Shown here piece after piece: positions 3,387 through 25,808 of a stretch of DNA of 25,808 bases. Both the position numbers and the translations under genes were made by a program. This DNA is from a virus: positions 1 through 25,808 of the IMG/VR virus record IMGVR_UViG_3300042987_001222. One strand, written 5' to 3'. Positions within the stretch are counted from its first letter, which is position 1. The number at the start of each line of letters is the position of its first letter. Under the pieces are notes generated by a model that was given only the letters and a program-made list of their open reading frames with translations, was not told where the DNA came from and made no database searches.

Positions 3387-4097
3387 ATGAAATCACAGAG
3401 CGACGGGCTATTGAGCAAGGTCACCGCGCAGAACATCCGCCTCCTGATCGAAAAGCAGAAGTCGGGTAAACCGTTGACCCGCGCTCAGTTGCAACAGGTG
3501 GAGAACTACCTATCGGGCAAAGAGGAGAAGCCGAGGACGTGGGCGAAGTCACTCGCTGAGTTGGCCGCGATGTTCGGGGTGACCCGGGCCGCTTGCAAAA
3601 GCTGGATCGCTCGAGGAGCACCAGCTGCCAACGCTTCGGGGTTTTACCCGATCGAAGAGTGGCGCGAGTGGGTTGAGGCACACGGGGCCGGTGCATCGGG
3701 TGACGGTGAAGACCTCGACAAGAGCAAGCTCACCGCTCGGCAGGTCTACCTGCGAAACCAACTTCTCGAACTTCAAATCCAACAGGCTCGAGGTGAGGTG
3801 ATGCACCGTGACGAAATCCGGAAAAAGCTCTACCAAACCTTCGACACCTGCAAACGTCTCCAGCTTCGCATCGGGCCATCACTCGCTGGCCGCCTTTCGG
3901 GAATGACCCCCACCCAAATCTCCAATGAAATCACGACAGCAATCCGAAACAGCTATGCCGAAATACAAAGATGGGCCGACGAACAAGCCGCAGCCGAAGC
4001 TGGAGCAGATGCACCCAGCGGACCTGATACCCTACGCGAGAAACGCGAAGAAACACGATCCGGAGCAGGTCGCAAAACTCGCGGGAAGCATTCGTGA
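3387..4097 (+). CDS. Terminase small subunit, Nu1-like
   Basis: 236 aa. A winged-helix/HTH DNA-binding domain lies at about residues 53-98: SLAELAAMFGVTRAACKSWI followed by a wing and YPIEEWREWVE, the pattern of lambda gpNu1 and its relatives. Residues about 105-195 are helical and should mediate oligomerisation and contact with the large subunit. The last 35 or so residues are Ala-, Arg- and Lys-rich. The protein would bind the packaging site and recruit the large subunit. The ATG has an A-rich leader (TATACAAA) and no Shine-Dalgarno. The 3' end overlaps the methyltransferase gene by more than 80 bases in another frame, so its C-terminal tail sequence is constrained by that overlap. Confidence 0.8.
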   Translation: MKSQSDGLLSKVTAQNIRLLIEKQKSGKPLTRAQLQQVENYLSGKEEKPRTWAKSLAELAAMFGVTRAACKSWIARGAPAANASGFYPIEEWREWVEAHGAGASGDGEDLDKSKLTARQVYLRNQLLELQIQQARGEVMHRDEIRKKLYQTFDTCKRLQLRIGPSLAGRLSGMTPTQISNEITTAIRNSYAEIQRWADEQAAAEAGADAPSGPDTLREKREETRSGAGRKTRGKHS

Positions 4098-5136
4098 GTT
4101 CGGGTTCAACAACCCGGTCCTCGTTGACCAGAGCAACGGCATCATTGCCGGGCATGGACGGGTTATGGCCGCGATCAAGTTAGGTCTTGAGTCAGTACCG
4201 GTCATCAGGCTCTCGCACCTGAGCGAGACTCAGCGCAGGGCGTACATTCTGGCCGATAACAAACTTGCGGAACTCGGTGGAGGATGGGACGAGGAGATGC
4301 TCAAGGTCGAGTTGGAAGCCATCAAGGAAAGCGACCTCGACCACCTCCTGACAGGCTTCTCGGATGAAGAGATGGCCGAGCTACTCGCGGAAACCAATCA
4401 ACTCAACGGAGACCCCGACGAGGTGCCGGAGACACCGGAAGATCCGATCACGAAGCCGGGCGACCTATGGATTCTCGGGGAGCATCGTCTGCTCTGCGGC
4501 GACTCGACGAAGGCGGAGGATGTCGAGCGGCTGATGGCGGGAGCGAAAGCGGACGCTTGCGTCCCCGATCCGCCTTATGGAATTGGCGTGGACGCCGCGA
4601 TGCACAAACAAAGCGGGACGCAGTATGGAAAAGCAGCAGCGGCAAAGAGGCACTACGCTGCGACCGACTGGGACAAGCTGCCACCACAGTCTGTGATAGA
4701 CAACGCCGCGTCTCACTCCGAGGCCATCATTTTCGGCGGCAACTATTTCAAACTTCCGCCTGCGCGATGTTGGCTTGTGTGGGACAAGGAGAACGGCGAC
4801 AACGCCTTCGCGGACTGCGAACTGGCGTGGACAAACCTCGACAAGCCCGTGCGACTAAAGCGGCATCTTTGGAACGGGATGATTCGCAAAGGTCGAGAAG
4901 AGAGAACCATCCACCCGACGCAAAAGCCAGTGGATGTAATGGCTTGGTGTATTGGCATGACGGCGGGCGTCGTCTACGACCCGTTCCTCGGCTCCGGCAC
5001 CACGCTGATCGCCGCCGAGCAACTGGGCCGCAAGTGCTACGGAATGGAGATCTCGCCGGCCTACTGCGACGTCATCGTGAAGCGGTGGGAGACACTGACA
5101 GGCAAAAAAGCCACCAGAGAATCAGATGTTCTTTGA
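3955..5136 (+). CDS. ParB-like nuclease domain fused to beta-class DNA methyltransferase
   Basis: 393 aa from ATG 3955. Residues about 17-110 are a ParB/Srx-type domain (ADLIPYARNAKKHDPEQVAK, then GIIAGHGRVMAA at 62-73). From about 166 a methyltransferase follows: DPPYG at 205-209 (motif IV), RCWLVWDKENGDNAFADCEL, HPTQKPVDVM at 320-329, and FLGSGTT at 344-350 (motif I). Motif IV before motif I marks the beta class; DPPY suggests N6-adenine or N4-cytosine methylation of phage DNA. The start is uncertain: 3925 and 4009 are in frame, and 4009 would cut into the ParB domain. All options overlap the small terminase gene out of frame. Placing a modification gene between the terminase subunits suggests a role in protecting or marking DNA for packaging, which is inference. 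Confidence 0.88.
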   Translation: MPKYKDGPTNKPQPKLEQMHPADLIPYARNAKKHDPEQVAKLAGSIREFGFNNPVLVDQSNGIIAGHGRVMAAIKLGLESVPVIRLSHLSETQRRAYILADNKLAELGGGWDEEMLKVELEAIKESDLDHLLTGFSDEEMAELLAETNQLNGDPDEVPETPEDPITKPGDLWILGEHRLLCGDSTKAEDVERLMAGAKADACVPDPPYGIGVDAAMHKQSGTQYGKAAAAKRHYAATDWDKLPPQSVIDNAASHSEAIIFGGNYFKLPPARCWLVWDKENGDNAFADCELAWTNLDKPVRLKRHLWNGMIRKGREERTIHPTQKPVDVMAWCIGMTAGVVYDPFLGSGTTLIAAEQLGRKCYGMEISPAYCDVIVKRWETLTGKKATRESDVL

Positions 5137-12608: not shown

Positions 12609-12950
12609 ATGGCTGAAATCATCAAAGGTACAGCGGTAACATTCGGCACCGGAGGGTCATCCGCGACGCTCCTCACCACCGCAACCGTCAACAAGACCTC
12701 ATCCAAAAAGGAAATCCCTGACGGGAACGGGGGCTTCGGTGCTGTCGTTTACTTCGCGATCAAGGACGAGGTGAACTTCGAGACCTACGAAGCGACCTCG
12801 CCAAACGTGGGAGACACCGCAACGCTTCCGAGTCTCATCTCAGGCTTCGTCACCGGTGCGGTATTCGTGACCTCTTCCGAGGTCGTCGAATCGTCGGAAG
12901 ACCTCACCAAATCGAACGTGCAGGCGGTCGCTTACGACGGCATCTCTTAA
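12609..12950 (+). CDS. Small tail protein, copy 2 (candidate tube component)
   Basis: 113 aa: TAVTFGTGGSSATLL, SSKKEIPDGNGGFGAVVYFA, IKDEVNFETYEAT, LISGFVTGAVFVTSSEV, SSEDLTKSNVQAVAYDGIS. It is a diverged tandem duplicate of the 108-aa protein upstream. One copy may form the tube and the other a minor ring, or the two may form a mixed ring; the sequence does not decide this. The leader is SD-less (CTCAAAATC). A weak hairpin follows in the 77-base gap downstream. Confidence 0.6.
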   Translation: MAEIIKGTAVTFGTGGSSATLLTTATVNKTSSKKEIPDGNGGFGAVVYFAIKDEVNFETYEATSPNVGDTATLPSLISGFVTGAVFVTSSEVVESSEDLTKSNVQAVAYDGIS

Positions 12951-13027: not shown

Positions 13028-13546
13028 ATGATCACCTCTTTTTACACCACGGGAAATCAGCGATTGGCTGTCGCACTAGCTACCATCGGGATCCCTCCGC
13101 ACGCAGAGAACCCCGTCACCGTCGAACGTCGAACGCTACCAAACGGAGAAGCAGAAGTTCGTACGACGTTCCACTTCGAGGTCGCTGGAACGTGGAAGGG
13201 ATTCGGCGGAGAACCTCAAATCGCCATCAAGGCCGATGCAATCGCGAGCGCATACTTCGCCCTCACCAAAGGCAAGAGACCCGAGAACCTCGACTTCCGG
13301 ATTCTCGCCGAACTGCAGATCATCCACGCGTGCCTCGAGGTGCGCGACGAAATCAACCGCGTGCGAAAGGCTGCAAATCCCGAGCAGTCTTACATCGGCG
13401 TTGCCATCTGCGAGAATGCCACCACGCTCGCCTCATTCGTTAACGCAACGCACGAACTGACCCGTCAAAAGCTTCGTCGTGGAATCCTCTACGCTCCCAC
13501 CGAGACGCTTCAAGACGCGCTCAAAACCTTCAAACATTTCGCCTAA
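13028..13546 (+). CDS. Unidentified protein before the tail chaperone gene
   Basis: 172 aa. The N-terminal half is beta-like (ENPVTVERRTLPNGEAEVRT, FHFEVAGTW); the C-terminal half is helical (LAELQIIHACLEVRDEINRV, TLASFVNATHELTRQKL, TLQDALKTFKHFA). I recognise no family. Its place between the tail tube candidates and the G-like chaperone suggests a tail-assembly role. The start has no Shine-Dalgarno (ATTCTCACCTTGTC before ATG). The gene is free-standing, with a 77-base gap before and 8 bases after. Confidence 0.65.
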   Translation: MITSFYTTGNQRLAVALATIGIPPHAENPVTVERRTLPNGEAEVRTTFHFEVAGTWKGFGGEPQIAIKADAIASAYFALTKGKRPENLDFRILAELQIIHACLEVRDEINRVRKAANPEQSYIGVAICENATTLASFVNATHELTRQKLRRGILYAPTETLQDALKTFKHFA

Positions 13547-13554
13547 CCATAACC

Positions 13555-13938
13555 ATGCTGACTGACATCCAACACCTCATCACGGGCACGTCCAACGCTG
13601 CCGCCACCGTGGCCGGAATCCCATGCCGACCACTCACGCTCCAAACCTTTGCGCTTATGGAGTTGACCGGAAACGAACTCCTCACCGCTCCGAGCACACG
13701 CATGGCTGATGTCCTCGGGTTCATCTATCTTCACAGTGCACCGCAGGAAAAGGTTGCAGAGGCCACCGCCGCTTACCTTGCAGGGGACAAAGCACGCATC
13801 CTAAAAGAGTCGCTCAACCTGCCATCCATCCCGCTCGCCGACTTGGCCGACATCGCTTGTCAGATCCGCGAGATGATCGAGCAGGCCACAGGGTCTCAGG
13901 TCGTCATCGAGGGTTCTGAGGCTGTACCGGGAAACTGA
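13555..13938 (+). CDS. Tail assembly chaperone, G-like (zero frame)
   Basis: 127 aa, mostly helical: LTLQTFALMELTGNELLTAP, TRMADVLGFIYLHSAP, AEATAAYLAGDKARILKESL, LADLADIACQIREMIEQATG. The gene order (tube candidates, this gene, tape measure two genes later) and the slippery GGGAAAC directly before its stop match lambda G. Lambda G and the frameshifted GT bind the tape measure and tail tube protein and are absent from the finished virion. Most ribosomes would stop at TGA 13936-13938. The start has no Shine-Dalgarno (CTAACCATAACC). Confidence 0.8.
   Translation: MLTDIQHLITGTSNAAATVAGIPCRPLTLQTFALMELTGNELLTAPSTRMADVLGFIYLHSAPQEKVAEATAAYLAGDKARILKESLNLPSIPLADLADIACQIREMIEQATGSQVVIEGSEAVPGN
13929..13935 (+). 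other. Programmed -1 frameshift site GGGAAAC
   Basis: In the zero frame the bases read G GGA AAC followed at once by TGA, the X XXY YYZ arrangement for tandem -1 slippage. Slipping back gives GGG AAA CTG and continues in an open frame of 60 codons to 14117. Lambda uses GGGAAAG at the same place in its G/T genes. I see no strong downstream structure by eye. Confidence 0.9.
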
Positions 13939-14117
13939 GTCGGGCAGGGATGGTCGCTAAGTACATCCATCATTTCGCCAGTGCATATGGATGGCACCCG
14001 AGCGAGATCCTTGCCCTGTCTATGCAGGACGCAAACGCGTTATTTGGTGCCTCGCTCGAGGCTCAAGGCCACCGTATTCGTCCGATAGTGGATGACCCAC
14101 GCCTTTGTGAGGCATGA
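13935..14117 (+). CDS. T-like extension, read by -1 frameshift to make GT fusion
   Basis: The -1 frame from CTG 13935 encodes 60 residues that look like true protein: LSRAGMVAKYIHHFASAYGW, then HPSEILALSMQDANALFGAS, LEAQG, and a tail ending DDPRLCEA. HPSEILALSM resembles the end of many T-type extensions. With the G part it gives a 187-aa GT protein. Separate initiation at ATG 13950 is possible but has no properly spaced ribosome site. The stop overlaps the next gene as ATGA at 14114. In lambda the GT:G ratio is critical to tail assembly, and the same is inferred here. Confidence 0.85.
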   Translation: MSRAGMVAKYIHHFASAYGWHPSEILALSMQDANALFGASLEAQGHRIRPIVDDPRLCEA

Positions 14118-14764
14118 AACTAACACTCTCAATGGATCTGACGAACTTCAACCGAGTGCTCGGGATTTACCTCCAGAACTCACGGAAAGAGGTGAAGAGC
14201 ATCGTCGGGAGGAAGTTTCGCGATGTCGTTATTCGCGCCGGCAAGTTTCACATGGACACTCGCGCCGAGACGCTGCAAGCCATCGAAAGGCGGAAGAAGG
14301 ACGGAAACCTGAGAATCTCCAAACGGATCATCGACCGCGTTGGTGCTCGCCGCTCGAAACTCCAAGCCGAACTGGAAAAACAAAAGAAATACATCGGCAA
14401 GAGGGGCAAGCGGGGAGAACTGGCCGTGGTCAAAATGATGATGGCTGCCGCGCAACTGCAACGCACAACAGTGCAACAAGACCGCTGGGGCCTCGAGATC
14501 AAGCAGCGACAAGACGCAGCCGGTCGAGCAGGGGCGTGGGGATGGCTAGTCAAGGGAGCCAAGTTTGACACCATCGAGTCGAAGCACCCCGCCGCAGTCG
14601 TGCGAAAGTTCGACGGACTTCTTGAGACGTACCTTGAGATCCAAAACAAGCGACCCGGGATCAGTTCGTTCGTCGACCGCAAAGGCTACATCGAAAAGGC
14701 GTTGGGTGCAGTGGCCGCTGACATGGCCGAGTACCTTTATCGCAAACTTGGGATCACAATATGA
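14114..14764 (+). CDS. Unidentified basic helical protein between GT and tape measure
   Basis: 216 aa, very basic in its middle (ERRKKDGNLRISKRIIDRVG, KLQAELEKQKKYIGKRGKRG) and mainly helical, with a C-terminal IEKALGAVAADMAEYLYRKL. That C-terminal pattern recalls HK97 gp10-type tail proteins, which have a similar A..l..a...E.a helix, but the resemblance is slight. Lambda has no gene here. Both ends are ATGA overlaps, so it is made with GT and the tape measure protein. A DNA- or tape-binding role is conceivable from charge alone. Confidence 0.65.
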   Translation: MKLTLSMDLTNFNRVLGIYLQNSRKEVKSIVGRKFRDVVIRAGKFHMDTRAETLQAIERRKKDGNLRISKRIIDRVGARRSKLQAELEKQKKYIGKRGKRGELAVVKMMMAAAQLQRTTVQQDRWGLEIKQRQDAAGRAGAWGWLVKGAKFDTIESKHPAAVVRKFDGLLETYLEIQNKRPGISSFVDRKGYIEKALGAVAADMAEYLYRKLGITI

Positions 14765-16953
14765 GCACAGCCACAATCCGCATCGGCGCAGACACGAGCA
14801 ACTTCAGGCAGGGGCTCACTCAGGCAGGGTCTCAGCTTCGATCATTCGCCGCGTCGGTCGCTTCCGTCGCAGGGGGACAAGCTCTCTTCGCTGGCCTTCA
14901 AGCTGGTATTGGTTCCGTCGGTAATGCTTTCCGCGCACTCGGTCAGACGTTCGCCGAAAGCATCTCGGTGGCCGGAGAGTTCGAGGCCGTGGTGGCTCAG
15001 TTCACCACATTTTATAAGTCCGCCGAGACAGCGCAGGGTGCCGTCTCCGAGTTGGCAAAATACGCCGCAACAACCTCTTTTCAACTGAGCGAGGTGGCCA
15101 ACGCTGGCGCATCGCTCGCCGCCGCAAACGTACCGGCCGAGCAACTCAAGGAGTCGATTCGAGTGATCGGAGACATCGCCGCCGCGACGAAAAAGCCGAT
15201 GGCTGAGATCCTTCAGCCATACGTGAAGACGCTCTCGGTCGGTAAGATGCAGACTGAGACTTTCCTTCAGTTCCTCGAGCGAGGGATTCCCATCGGCGAA
15301 GAGTTGAAAAAGGCTCTCAACCTCAGTGACGCTGGACTTCAGGAGGCACTGACGAAGAGCAAGATCTCAGCGCAGGACATGGTTAACGCGCTCCAAGCGA
15401 TGACCACCACGGGCCTTTTCTCGGGTGCCGCAGCAAACCAAGGCCAGACGCTGAACGGGCTCATCTCGACTCTCAAAGACAACGTGGAGGAGGTAAAGCG
15501 GAACCTCGGCCTCGCAGCGTCGGAGGGGCTCAAACCCCTCATCGAGTTTGCTCAAAATCTCGTCGGGAAGTTCGCACCGATCGGGACCGCTCTCGGCAAC
15601 ATTTTCTCAACGGCCACCAAGAAGGCTCTACAGTTTTCAAACGACTTCAGCGCAGGCTTCGGACGAGCCGTCGACACATCGGTGCGAGCGTTTCAAATCA
15701 TCGAAGGAGCGATCCAAAACGGGACGCTCTGGGACATCCTCACGGTCTCAGGGAAACTTGCATTTGCCGAGGTGCAAGCATTCGGGATTCGGGCACTTGA
15801 AGGCATCACGGAGGTGTTCTCTGGGGCTGACCTCATCGGGGCTCTCGCTCCAGTGGCTGACTCGTTCATCGACCGGATCGTCAACGCTGGACCAGCCATC
15901 GGGGCCGCTCTCGAGTCTCCGCTTGGTCAGGCATTCATTCGCGCAGTCGATGCGTTCGCGTCCTACCTCAAGCAGCAAATCGGTTTCGCAGTGGCGGGGC
16001 TCGCTGACATTGCATTGCCAAGTTTCATATCTCCGACCCGCAACGAGACGACGGGGCGAGGAATGCGGATGGGTGGCCTCGGTCTAGAAGGGCCGATTGG
16101 ATTTGCCTCCGGTGGTGTCACTTCGGCGCAGGCCGGCGAGATGCTCGCGGCGCAGGCCGCCGGCTACCCGACACCGCTTAGCCCGGGCGAGGTGCGCGAG
16201 ACGTTTGCGAACGGGAAGCGCATCACCTACAACACCAAGGAGTCGTTTTCCAACGGTGTCATCGTGCCTCCGAGCAACGCTGACGCTTACGCTGAGGGAA
16301 CACCGGGACAAGGAGTGATCGCCGCATTCGAGCGTGGGTTCAGTCGTCAGACAGCAGCGACCGAGAAGCTCCAAGTTCAGAACGAGCGACTCAGAACCGA
16401 GTTGGCCAAGCTCACCGAGGCCGCGCTTCGAAACGCAACGGCCATCCGCGAACAGTCGAGCACCCTCAAAAACCAGACGGAGTTGACCGCGAAGACGGCT
16501 CAGGCTGAGGAGAAGAAAAGCAAGGCCACCAAGACCGGTGACTTCTTTACCTCGCTGGAGAAAATCGGAGGTGGCCGACGGATGATGAACCTCGCGCCTC
16601 GAGGAGAGATGATCGGGCTCGAGGGCAGAGCACCCGGACTTCGAGGGGCTGGAGATCTCGGTGGAGGATTCGCAGCGTCACCGGCATTTCTCGCTGCCAA
16701 GAAACGCGAGGAGATTGCCAAAATCCCTGTCCAAGGGCCACCCGCCGAGGAGTTCTTTCGGATCCAGCGTGAGAACCTCAAGCAGGCAACCGACATCGTC
16801 GCCGAACCATTCCCGCTTCCCATTCCCGGGGGCGACAAAACGGATCCTGTCATCCGCTCGATCCAAATCTGGCAGCAAGCGGTCACTGGCAAGCTCGACA
16901 ACGTGGTCAGCGCGATCAGTAAACAAGGCTCCCTCAACGTGGCCGTGGTATGA
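14761..16953 (+). CDS. Tail tape measure protein
   Basis: 730 aa, the largest complete gene here. The start IRIGADTSNFRQGLTQAGSQ is the typical opening of tape measure proteins, followed by an Ala/Gly-rich hydrophobic stretch (about 31-60), then the conserved region with FEAVVAQFTTFYKSAETAQG, YAATTSFQLSEVANAGASLA, FLQFLERGIPIGEELKKALN and ALTKSKISAQDMVNALQAMT. Hydrophobic helices follow to about 430. A charged coiled coil lies at about 530-590 (VQNERLRTELAKLTEAALRN). It sets tail length and is injected with DNA; its length is moderate for siphoviruses. The position after G/GT and before tip genes agrees. The ATG is in an ATGA overlap. Confidence 0.9.
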   Translation: MSTATIRIGADTSNFRQGLTQAGSQLRSFAASVASVAGGQALFAGLQAGIGSVGNAFRALGQTFAESISVAGEFEAVVAQFTTFYKSAETAQGAVSELAKYAATTSFQLSEVANAGASLAAANVPAEQLKESIRVIGDIAAATKKPMAEILQPYVKTLSVGKMQTETFLQFLERGIPIGEELKKALNLSDAGLQEALTKSKISAQDMVNALQAMTTTGLFSGAAANQGQTLNGLISTLKDNVEEVKRNLGLAASEGLKPLIEFAQNLVGKFAPIGTALGNIFSTATKKALQFSNDFSAGFGRAVDTSVRAFQIIEGAIQNGTLWDILTVSGKLAFAEVQAFGIRALEGITEVFSGADLIGALAPVADSFIDRIVNAGPAIGAALESPLGQAFIRAVDAFASYLKQQIGFAVAGLADIALPSFISPTRNETTGRGMRMGGLGLEGPIGFASGGVTSAQAGEMLAAQAAGYPTPLSPGEVRETFANGKRITYNTKESFSNGVIVPPSNADAYAEGTPGQGVIAAFERGFSRQTAATEKLQVQNERLRTELAKLTEAALRNATAIREQSSTLKNQTELTAKTAQAEEKKSKATKTGDFFTSLEKIGGGRRMMNLAPRGEMIGLEGRAPGLRGAGDLGGGFAASPAFLAAKKREEIAKIPVQGPPAEEFFRIQRENLKQATDIVAEPFPLPIPGGDKTDPVIRSIQIWQQAVTGKLDNVVSAISKQGSLNVAVV

Positions 16954-22202: not shown

Positions 22203-23957
22203 ATGCCGAACTTCATCCGCCAACTCCGAAAGGCCACGTCGGGAACCCCTCCCATTGAGGGCATTCCGTCGGGCGTGCTGATCGTCAACACAGCCGACCA
22301 AACCCTCTCGTTTCCTAACGCGGCAGGGAATGGATGGGTGACGTTCCAAGCGGGGGCGTCGGCGCCATCGTTTGCACTTCAACAGTTTACGTTCACGGGA
22401 AACGGTTCGCAAACGGTGTTCACCACGACATCCACCGACTCGACAGACGACCACTTTGTCGTGGCCATCGGAGGTGTCTTCCAGACGGCTGGTGATGACT
22501 ACACGGTCACAGCTGGTGTTGTGACGTTTACGAGCGCACCGCCTGATGGAGAGAAGGTCAACATCCTCGTCGCATCTGGCGGGGTTGCTGGGCCTCAAGG
22601 GCCGATTGGTGCGACTGGTGTTGGGTCTCAAGGGCCGGTCGGTGCAACTGGAGTTGCTGGCGAAATTGGCGCAACAGGCGCAAGTGGAGCAGACGGGGCG
22701 ACCGGAATTGCTGGGCCGCAGGGCGCGACTGGGCACGTCGGCGCATCGGGGGCAACGGGGCCATCTGGACCGCAAGGCGAAACGGGAGCACCGGGGCCGA
22801 CTGGTCCACAAGGCGAAGCGGGATCACCTGGCGGTGCAACAGGTGCCACCGGACCATCGGGGGCCGTCGGCGAACAAGGGCCGCAAGGCAACGTCGGAGA
22901 GGCTGGGCCAACCGGCGCGACAGGACCTAGCGGTGACGTTGGACCAACGGGTGTTGACGGGCAGGTCGGAGCAACAGGTGTCGCAGGTCCAAGCGGAGAG
23001 CAAGGACCTTCGGGGCCAGCGGGAGATGCAGGCGCTACAGGGCCACTCGGCGCAACAGGTGCAACAGGCGCAACAGGTGCATCGGCACTTTGGAACTACA
23101 CCGCAGCTTTTGACCTCGGAGTCAGTTACGCCGTGGGAGATTTGGCGACCTACGAGGGAAACCTTTGGTATCGCACCGATGCAAACGGCGGCAACACCGG
23201 CGACATCCCAAGCACGCTCTCCGCATTCTGGGATCTCATCGCGAGCCGCGGAGCAAACGGTGCAGCTGGCAATGACGGCGCAACAGGTGTCGGTGCCACC
23301 GGCGCGACAGGTATCGCAGGCACTATTTTCTATGGAGGCACTGACGCGCCATCTCCATCGCTTGGAAAAGATGGTGACGTCTATTTTCAGGAAATGCCTG
23401 AGAGCGACAACTACGACGACGTGCAGACTGTGTCGGTTTACGTCAAGGCCTCAAACGAGTGGAATTCCTCGCTCAACATGCGCGGTGGCCGCGGTGCCAC
23501 TGGTGCCACTGGCGATGTTGGACCAAAGGGGGATCAGGGCTTTCCCGGTCCCGCAGGGCCAAGCGGGATGCAAGGTCCCGAGGGCAATCCGGGCATGCCG
23601 GGACCGAGCGGAATGCAGGGTCCAGAGGGGCCCCCTGGGTTTCCCGGGGACACTGGCGAACAGGGGCCGGAGGGGCCGCGAGGCGCAACCGGACCAGTTG
23701 GTGATCCCGGAGCGACCGGCTCAACGGGACCGGCTGGGATTGATGGCATCGACGGTGCGGTCGGTGCCACTGGTGCCACTGGACCCGATGGCGAAAAGGG
23801 TGCCACGGGATCTACGGGCATCACCGGCGATCAAGGCGCAACAGGCGCAACAGGACCCAACTGGACAGTCTCTGAGGAAACACCATCAAACACCGTTGTA
23901 CCAGCGGGTTACTTTGATGCTGGCAATGGTAAGTTGGTGCCATTTTACACCGTATGA
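22203..23957 (+). CDS. Collagen-like tail fibre with inserted binding modules
   Basis: 584 aa. Residues 1-50 resemble the N-terminal module of the previous fibre (MPN.I..LR). Residues 58-125 form a beta domain ([17 protein letters not shown]...). G-X-Y repeats run about 127-293, rich in GAT, with breaks at 139-141 and 210-211. Residues 296-348 ([44 protein letters not shown]) look like a small CBM5/12-type carbohydrate-binding module. A short collagen piece (about 349-373), a beta module (374-428), a second long collagen block (429-552, with [15 protein letters not shown] and a repeated PSGMQGPEG) and a 32-residue tip follow. It would form a triple-helical trimer with sugar-binding parts. Its stop overlaps the next ATG. 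Confidence 0.88.
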
Positions 23958-25808
23958 CAAAGGTTTCGAACAGCTTACTCAAGGACGCGGGCACGACGGG
24001 AAAGGCGCTCATCACGGCGGCATCCGCATCCGCCGCACGCTCAACTCTCGAACTCGGGACCGCTGCAACGACAGCCGCGTCGGATTACGCAGCGGCTAAC
24101 CACACGCACTCAACGGCGCAGATTAGTGGCCTCGCAACAGTGGCCATCTCAGGCTCGTACAACGACCTTGCCGACAAGCCGACCTCAAGCGGGGTGACGT
24201 TCGCAAACACAAAGGTTGTCGGGGTGGACGCTCAAACCATCCAAGGATGCATCGACCTTGTCACAGGCGCGACCGGACTCAACCAGACCCAGATCCTGAT
24301 CCCGCCCGGCGTGTATGCCGAGAATCTGACGCTCAAACCCTGCGTTTCTCTCGCGTCGACCGGAGGCAACAACGGGCAGGGGTCCGTCGTGAGGATCAAC
24401 GGCTACCACACCTGCCAAGGGTCCGCGACCGCTGGCGATTCCATCCTCGAGCTCAATGGTTTACGCTTCGACACCAACACCACCAACCCCGTTCTCACGC
24501 TGACGGCCAACGGGTCGACCAAGTTCTTGGTCCACATGCAGGACTGCATGGTTGGCAACTCCAACAGTTCGACGGCGGTGGTCGGCGTGCAGATCAACGC
24601 CAACGTGTCAGTCCGCGCTGCTAACGTGCGGAGCGTGGCCAACTCAACCGCGGGATCCGGAGGCACGCATTGGGACGTTAACGGCGGAAGTCTCTACCTC
24701 GAGCGGTGCTCTGGTGAGTTTGGGACTGGTGCCATCTTGATGCGCGGAACCAACGGAGCATTAACACCTTACGTCGAGTGTAAGTGGTCCAACTACATCA
24801 CCAATGGCGCCAACGCCATCAGCATCACGTCCGCCACCGCGCTGCTCACAATGGGATGGTCCGCGTTTCAAAACCTCGCGACGACGGGCAACGGCATCTC
24901 CATCGCCGCGGGCTCAGTTGCTGGGGTGTTCAATTCGACGTTCACGGTGGTTGCGGGCGCGTCAAACTACGTGGTGACGGGCGATGCGGGCTCCGTGCTG
25001 TACCAGCAGGGGAACAACTACAGCAACGCGCCGTACGCGACTTACGAAACGAAAATCAACTCGCTGGTCACGCAATTCACCTATTCGCCGAGCCGTCTGA
25101 ACCTAGGCCAGACAGCCACTCCGAGCGCACCGAACGGGGGTGAAGCGTGGTTGTCGTCCTCCAATATCCTCACGTGGTACGGGCAAAATTCGACGCAATA
25201 CACAGCCGCTGCTTTGTCGGTGGCCAACCAGTTCACTGCGCAGCAACAACTCAACAGCGGGCTCAAGTTGACCAGTTCGAGCGGGCCGACCATCACCGCG
25301 GGCACCAACACTCCGGAAGGTGCGGTCACGGCACCGGTTGGCTCGCTTTTCCTCCGCACCAATGGAGCGGCCAACACGACGCTCTACGTCAAGCAAACCG
25401 GCTCCGGGAACACCGGATGGACTGCCACTGCACCGGCTGCCATCACGCAGTTGACCGGAGACGTGACCACGAGCACGGGCGGTGGATCACAGGCAGCGAC
25501 TCTCGCAACGTTGGCGGGCCTGACAACTGGCCAGTACGGCAGCGCGTCGAGCGTGGCTCAGGTGACGGTCAACGCAAAAGGACTCACCACTTTAGCGACT
25601 AGCGTTCCGATTGCGATCACGACGGCGCAGGTGACGGGACTGAGCGCGACCGCTTTGGGGGCCATCACTCAACTCACCGGAGACGTCACAACGAGCACCG
25701 GCGGAGGATCACAAGCGGCAACGCTCAAGACTTTGTCCGGGCTCACGAGCGGGCAGTACGGAGGCGCCGCATCGGTGGCGCAGGTGACGGTCAACGAAAA
25801 GGGTTTGA
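23954..25808 (+). CDS. Tail fibre/tailspike-like protein with probable beta-helix (partial, runs off window)
   Basis: 618 codons are visible and no stop occurs before the window ends. Residues 1-78 are fibre-type: [50 protein letters not shown]. Residues about 85-360 look like a right-handed beta-helix: [19 protein letters not shown] is a typical pectate-lyase-like first coil, followed by short strands separated by Asn/Gly turns. A linker has [20 protein letters not shown] (about 457-476). From residue 497 a 74-residue repeat begins ([19 protein letters not shown]), repeated from 25664. It may recognise or degrade surface polysaccharide; no catalytic residues can be assigned. The ATG is in an ATGA overlap with the collagen gene. 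Confidence 0.85.
25442..25808 (+). repeat. 222-base tandem repeat in the last fibre gene
   Basis: Copy 1 (25442-25663) and copy 2 (25664 to the window end, incomplete) encode the same 74-aa unit: [20 protein letters not shown] at the start and VAQVTVN.KGL later. The copies differ at many third codon positions, so the duplication is not recent. The second half of copy 2 is outside the window, so the number of units is unknown. Confidence 0.85.

Follow-up and report, generated by a model that had tools for sequence, protein, structure and literature searches.

A probable programmed −1 frameshift joining G-like and T-like reading frames upstream of the tape measure gene in an environmental phage group

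Gene organization of the locus

The window, by which we mean the whole stretch of DNA analyzed (25,808 bases), is taken from the IMG/VR virus record IMGVR_UViG_3300042987_001222. The surroundings of the locus are a tailed-phage head and tail module: genes for a gpA-type terminase, a lambda-type portal protein, a cement protein, the major capsid protein and a weak match to a head-tail attachment protein are followed by four small genes without clear family, the G/T gene pair, a gene for a 216-aa protein and the tape measure gene. The features of the locus are as follows.

13555..13938, + strand: G-like gene, zero-frame product of 127 aa; relatives 52–98% identical in alignment
13929..13935, + strand: slippery heptamer G_GGA_AAC; in phase in 20 of 22 contigs
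13936..13938, + strand: zero-frame stop adjoining the heptamer, TGA (TAA in some relatives)
13935..14117, + strand: T-like part in the −1 frame, 60 codons plus TGA, putatively reached by frameshift
13942..13951, + strand: 5′ arm of the predicted stimulatory stem, starting 6 nt after the heptamer
13950..13952, + strand: ATG candidate for a T start; ATC or ACC in 8 of 22 relatives, not a conserved start
13954..14005, + strand: predicted inner stem-loop; the window pairs 13954–13958 with 14001–14005, longer in some relatives
14007..14016, + strand: 3′ arm of the predicted stem; contains an invariant Ala GCC (14 unique sequences)
14114..14764, + strand: gene for a 216-aa protein between the G/T pair and the tape measure gene; ATGA overlap with T
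14761..16953, + strand: tape measure protein gene, 730 aa (PF20155, E 4.9e-22; phrog_9959, E 1.6e-32)

The zero-frame codons at the site read CCG GGA AAC TGA, an in-phase X_XXY_YYZ sequence with a gap of 0 nt between heptamer and stop. The initial annotation had placed GGGAAAC in exact phase, adjoining the TGA of the G-like gene, and this is correct to the base. From 13935 the −1 frame reads LSRAGMVAKY...CEA, with sense codons at 13935–14114 and a TGA stop at 14115–14117 that overlaps the ATG (14114) of the 216-aa gene. A mechanical ORF list begins the T part at 13950, the very start predicted for a simple ORF caller by the annotation; such a caller places the T start too late and, in relatives that have no ATG, not at that place.

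The annotation further described the context as tail proteins before and tape measure after. The second half holds with a correction: a tape measure gene (PF20155) lies downstream, not immediately next, with the gene for the 216-aa protein between. The first half finds no such backing, as none of the four genes immediately preceding G can be clearly assigned to a tail family in Pfam or PHROGs. The interval 12609–12950 gives one weak match to a 'head scaffolding' PHROG (E 0.0067). The gene just upstream of G (13028–13546, 172 aa) is 56–100% identical across loci, and the gene for the 216-aa protein is fast evolving (27–100% identical); each is without a significant Pfam or PHROG match. Elsewhere in the window, positions 3925–5136 encode a ParB-like N-terminal domain joined to an N6/N4 DNA methylase domain, with the first ATG inside the preceding gene.

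G, T and the fusion have no significant match in Pfam or PHROGs. Below threshold, the best match for G was to a yeast-type domain (E 0.048, obtained with 3 of 13 G members) and the best for T was to an unnamed PHROG (E 0.35). There was no match for G or T in the phages collection, the best hit among PDB sequences was to an unrelated protein (E 0.15), and no relative was found in genome_contigs. Fold searches with a structure model of G (pLDDT 69.7) gave no significant match in PDB (best E 2.5), by VIA-align (best Z 2.4) or in BFVD, where the best match was an uncharacterized phage protein (E 0.049) and one protein named tail assembly chaperone appeared only at rank 34 (E 6.6). Negative results of this sort count neither for nor against a chaperone identity. 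Sequence similarity among chaperone ORFs is described as low in a section of a review (PMC5009743).

Chance expectation within the window

The 26 window genes (7,647 codons) contain 30 in-phase XXXYYYZ heptamers and 4 in-phase copies of GGGAAAC, compared with 1.7 expected. Given how often stop triplets occur in the window, a run of 60 codons is open by chance with a probability of 0.35. The heptamer together with an open −1 frame in a single sequence is therefore weak evidence, hardly beyond chance. What does exceed chance is the position of the heptamer at the stop, with a −1 frame that fills the interval before the next gene, and above all its conservation; the comparison with relatives is decisive. 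Two more of the in-phase GGGAAAC copies lie in a gene for a collagen-like GXY-repeat protein (22203–23957), far from its stop; this gene is followed by a 618-codon ORF (23954–25807) that runs off the end of the record.

Conservation of the slip site and of the −1 frame

Relatives were collected by searches with the fusion, a fusion profile, a G profile, a T profile, the upstream 172-aa protein and the tape measure N-terminus, together with a DNA pattern scan; the sets returned overlap. Twenty-two IMG/VR contigs, the window excluded, span the junction (L003–L018, L020, L022, L023, L024, L063 and L066). Contigs that end before the junction (L019, L021, L035) or begin after it (L054) were not counted, nor were L070 and L071, whose common part is a distant tape measure protein (27%), or L100 and L114, which were picked up by the DNA pattern scan and have an unrelated gene pair.

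GGGAAAC occurs in zero-frame phase, accompanied by a −1 frame, in 20 of the 22 contigs, at G identities down to 52%, and in 19 it stands directly before the zero-frame stop (TGA or TAA). In L023 the site reads GAG GGA AAC, in phase, and the stop follows 8 codons further on. L022 and L024 have CTG GGG GAG at the heptamer position (GGGGGAG) and, being identical over the 800 bases compared, represent one lineage. The lowest identity to the window among aligned members is 52% for G and 43% for T. The annotation had proposed alignment with related phages as a check on the heptamer and both frames, and had named a lack of conservation of GGGAAAC or of the −1 frame as a refuting result; this did not occur, as the heptamer and the −1 frame are kept in 20 of the 22 contigs.

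The same distribution bears on whether an assembly or sequencing indel has split a single gene. That the sequences are metagenome contigs is the only point in favor of this explanation, which we regard as extremely improbable: 19 contigs are broken at one and the same position, some with TGA and others with TAA as the stop, the window and 18 of these contigs make up 14 distinct sequences, and the stop of L023 lies 8 codons on.

To measure selection on the site, we used 14 unique fusions drawn from 19 sequences (the window and 18 contigs; L020, L022, L023 and L024 left out). At each of the two slippery codons, GGA and AAC, 0 of 91 same-residue pairs differ synonymously, compared with 0.42 gene-wide. 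The codon before GGA is CCG, GCG, GTG or ACG (Pro, Ala, Val or Thr) and ends in G throughout, as does the Glu codon (GAG) at this position in L023. Two other T codons are equally invariant, Ala154 GCC, inside the predicted stem, and Asn161 AAC. The Leu after the slip is encoded only by CTG or CTA and the next Ser only by AGT or AGC, so that a zero-frame TGA or TAA is always kept there; termination at the heptamer thus appears to be retained by selection.

The −1 frame, open from 13935 to 14114, evidently evolves as protein: the numbers of variable columns at its first, second and third codon positions in T are 30, 21 and 53 (of 58 each). This third-position bias bears out the annotation's description of a protein-like 60-codon frame running to the ATGA of the next gene.

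Alternatively, ribosomes that terminate at the G stop could reinitiate at ATG 13950 and make T as a small protein of its own, in which case the heptamer would be incidental. In the window an ATG does follow soon after the stop, preceded by a G-rich stretch, and in L022/L024 a GTG overlaps the G stop. The ATG is replaced, however, by ATC in L014–L018, L020 and L063 and by ACC in L066, which makes a start at this position impossible in 8 of the 22 contigs. The LSRAG segment, which precedes the sole ATG at which T might start, does not vary as −1-frame protein in the 14 unique sequences while its codons vary synonymously, and the degenerate codon GGA is invariant in the same set. Since the ATG is lost in 8 of 22 contigs while LSRAG is kept, a separately started T is evidently not the mode of expression common to the family, and we consider this explanation of the locus highly improbable. 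Transcriptional slippage was set aside as a candidate because there is no long homopolymer run at the site.

A predicted stem-loop downstream of the heptamer

Downstream structure is a common, not an obligatory, component of −1 frameshifts of the X_XXY_YYZ type. RNAalifold, applied to 13 sequences, proposed a 10-bp stem between 13942–13951 and 14007–14016. The 6-nt spacer is within the usual range of 5–9 nt as given in part of a review (PMC5009743). All ten positions are paired in 10 of 15 unique sequences, L022 included; nine are paired in L014, L017 and L018 and eight in L066, and the stem is not shared by L023. In the alignment of the 14 unique fusions, the stem ranks first among 49,969 antiparallel pairs of 10-base segments, with 0.964 of cells paired vs 0.821 for the best non-overlapping segment pair. 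When the inner pairs are added (19 pairs, 14 sequences), 87.6% of cells pair, and sliding the arms either way reduces this to 42–55%.

We compared 100-nt downstream folds with synonymous shuffles that keep both protein and codons. In 12 of the 15 unique sequences the native fold exceeds the shuffles in stability (z −1.9 to −4.2; no more than 8 of 300 shuffles match it), and in L066, L022 and L023 it is no better than they are. Folds of 70 nt, a length that cuts off the 3′ arm, gave no signal in 8 sequences (z −0.05 to −1.3). The covariation score of the 19 pairs in 14 sequences is 0.158 compared with 0.090 in shuffles (0 of 500 as high), although kinship among sequences can by itself lift the score above such shuffles when there is no structure. 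Three pairs change on both sides, two in the outer stem and one inner, a count reached by 254 of 500 shuffles; the count of nine further pair types is reached by 400 of 500. Two of the five covariation measures show no excess over shuffles in the 14 sequences.

These results bear on whether the frameshift operates without RNA structure, the stem being a by-product of the peptide motifs RAG and ILAL, a reading otherwise compatible with the frameshift itself. Coding evidently explains part of the pairing: when codons are drawn synonymously for the fixed protein sequence, a mean of about 8 of the 10 stem pairs already forms, and all ten form in about 3% of the draws. The three sequences without excess stability and the two covariation measures at shuffle level point the same way, and the same stability test gives little on published comparators (lambda, z −1.2; KL1, z −1.1), P2 giving more (z −2.5). 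Against this stand the 12 of 15 sequences that are more stable than protein-keeping shuffles, the changes on both sides of two outer-stem pairs and one inner pair, and the L023 locus, which has an unrelated hairpin likewise starting 6 nt after the heptamer; of 1000 synonymous draws, 7 reach the stability of this hairpin and none of these 7 starts there. On balance the stem-loop predicted by these models is probably real, and we regard a frameshift without structure as possible but rather doubtful.

Two further candidate elements found no support. For a pseudoknot between the loop and downstream sequence, the best 7-bp candidate has 0.888 of cells paired, and the best background candidate, taken from the G part, reaches 0.867. 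For a Shine-Dalgarno-like upstream stimulator as a general feature, the 30 nt before the heptamer were set against the gene's remaining in-phase 30-mers. In 16 of 20 sequences at least 17% of the latter bind as strongly as those 30 nt (up to 75% in L066), and the upstream binding stands out only in L015, L016, L018 and L063 (3%). A search of Rfam gave no match in 13500–14700. The stem-loop, the kept zero-frame stop and the two natural variants of the site are additions to the initial annotation.

Comparison with known systems

The present locus is very like the published prediction for gp18/gp19 of the Burkholderia phage KL1. In the passages of that report concerned with the gene pair (PMC3483164), GGGAAAC adjoins the TGA of the short product, a −1 fusion is predicted, a downstream stem-loop is predicted, and one gene separates the fusion from the tape measure gene. 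HK97, like KL1, has a single gene separating its frameshifted pair from the tape measure gene (for KL1, the same passages of PMC3483164). The two loci differ in that there is no significant protein similarity (best blastp E 0.22), and in our folds of KL1 the strong stem lies further from the site; its 100-nt fold has z −1.1, with 49 of 300 synonymous shuffles as stable.

Lambda gpG/gpGT likewise has an in-phase G_GGA_AA(G) near the end of the first gene, a −1 extension and a position before the tape measure gene. In lambda, as stated in part of a review (PMC5009743), G binds the tape measure protein and T the tail tube protein, and the mature particle contains neither product. Unlike the present site, GGGAAAG of lambda lies 15 nt before the stop, the T part has 144 aa and the tape measure gene is directly next; there is no significant profile match between the lambda and the present proteins.

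P2 gpE/gpE+E′ resembles the locus in its short −1 extension (57 aa in P2; extension family PF06528), and differs in slipping on TTTTTTG, 18 nt before the stop. T against P2 E′ (GpE) was the best of the 12 profile comparisons listed, HK97 having been dropped from the comparator test for want of an in-phase XXXYYYZ near its stop. The resemblance is weak, with E 0.00087 to P2 alone. Against ten GpE-type sequences the result is slightly weaker than with P2 alone (hhalign probability 13.7%, E 0.002; 1 of 200 column shuffles as high), and Pfam searches with hmmscan gave no match of T to PF06528. Tail-gene frameshifts on the same heptamer G_GGA_AAC are reported for the haloarchaeal siphovirus HCTV-1 (part of PMC5009743) and for Caulobacter phage Colossus (part of PMC3556154).

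Interpretation and proposed mechanism

We conclude that the locus is very probably a −1 programmed frameshift of the lambda G/GT type, yielding G and a G-T fusion from one start codon. In the features that sequence can test, the mechanism fits such a frameshift, the L022/L024 lineage apart. The initial annotation had proposed a programmed −1 frameshift joining a G-like and a T-like tail chaperone, and the joining is supported by heptamers in 20 of 22 contigs, invariant slippery codons and a protein-like −1 frame; the chaperone identity we infer.

Under the proposed mechanism, most ribosomes would stay in the zero frame and terminate at the stop directly after the heptamer, giving the 127-aa G-like protein. 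In a minority, the tRNAs on GGA AAC would slip one base back to GGG AAA, a step probably promoted by the stem-loop 6 nt downstream, and these ribosomes would translate 60 more codons in the −1 frame to give a 187-aa G-T fusion. Most likely both products are tail assembly chaperones, judging from the location of the pair, which follows the head and head-tail genes and is separated from the downstream tape measure gene by one gene, and from the analogy with lambda; on the same analogy G would bind the tape measure protein and the T extension would recruit the tail tube protein. In part of the GeneTack work (PMC3711429), frameshifting levels of 6% and 7% were obtained for two frameshift genes of tail chaperones, and by analogy we would expect the same order of magnitude at this locus.

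Frameshifting by −1 in tail genes is a well-known phage device, so the kind of device is familiar; the proteins that use it here are unmatched by the family libraries searched. The group offers an example of environmental phages whose probable chaperones are missed by Pfam and PHROGs and are recognizable by their frameshift signature. It also provides data for comparing, across relatives, a stem-loop stimulator of tail chaperone frameshifting, with natural variants of the slip site (L022/L024) and of the hairpin (L023).

Exceptional lineages and look-alike sites

In L022 (4378–4400), and in the same region of L024, GGGGGAG is followed by a 6-nt spacer and a stem with all ten pairs kept. This lineage may either slip on a poor non-canonical site or have switched to reinitiation. 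L023 has GGGAAAC within the last 40 bases of a G-like gene that starts at 4001. Most of the family combine GGGAAAC with the large stem-loop, L023 combines the heptamer with an unrelated hairpin, and in L022/L024 the 10-bp stem follows GGGGGAG with the spacing unchanged. The slip site and its RNA stimulator might be separate, exchangeable modules at a fixed 6-nt spacing, with L022/L024 slipping on a non-canonical G_GGG_GAG, a speculation that we put forward tentatively and consider somewhat unlikely. If it is true, the T motif RAG...ILAL would be shaped in part by RNA pairing.

Two of the contigs not counted above, L100 (2308 of the reverse complement) and L114 (6934), have an unrelated gene pair in which GGGAAAC adjoins the TGA and the −1 frame extends for 120 codons up to an ATGA overlap; from its sequence, this pair is probably another tail chaperone frameshift. 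In L070 and L071 (1196–1648, 1522–1923), two overlapping frames offset by −1 occupy the G/T place upstream of the distant tape measure protein.
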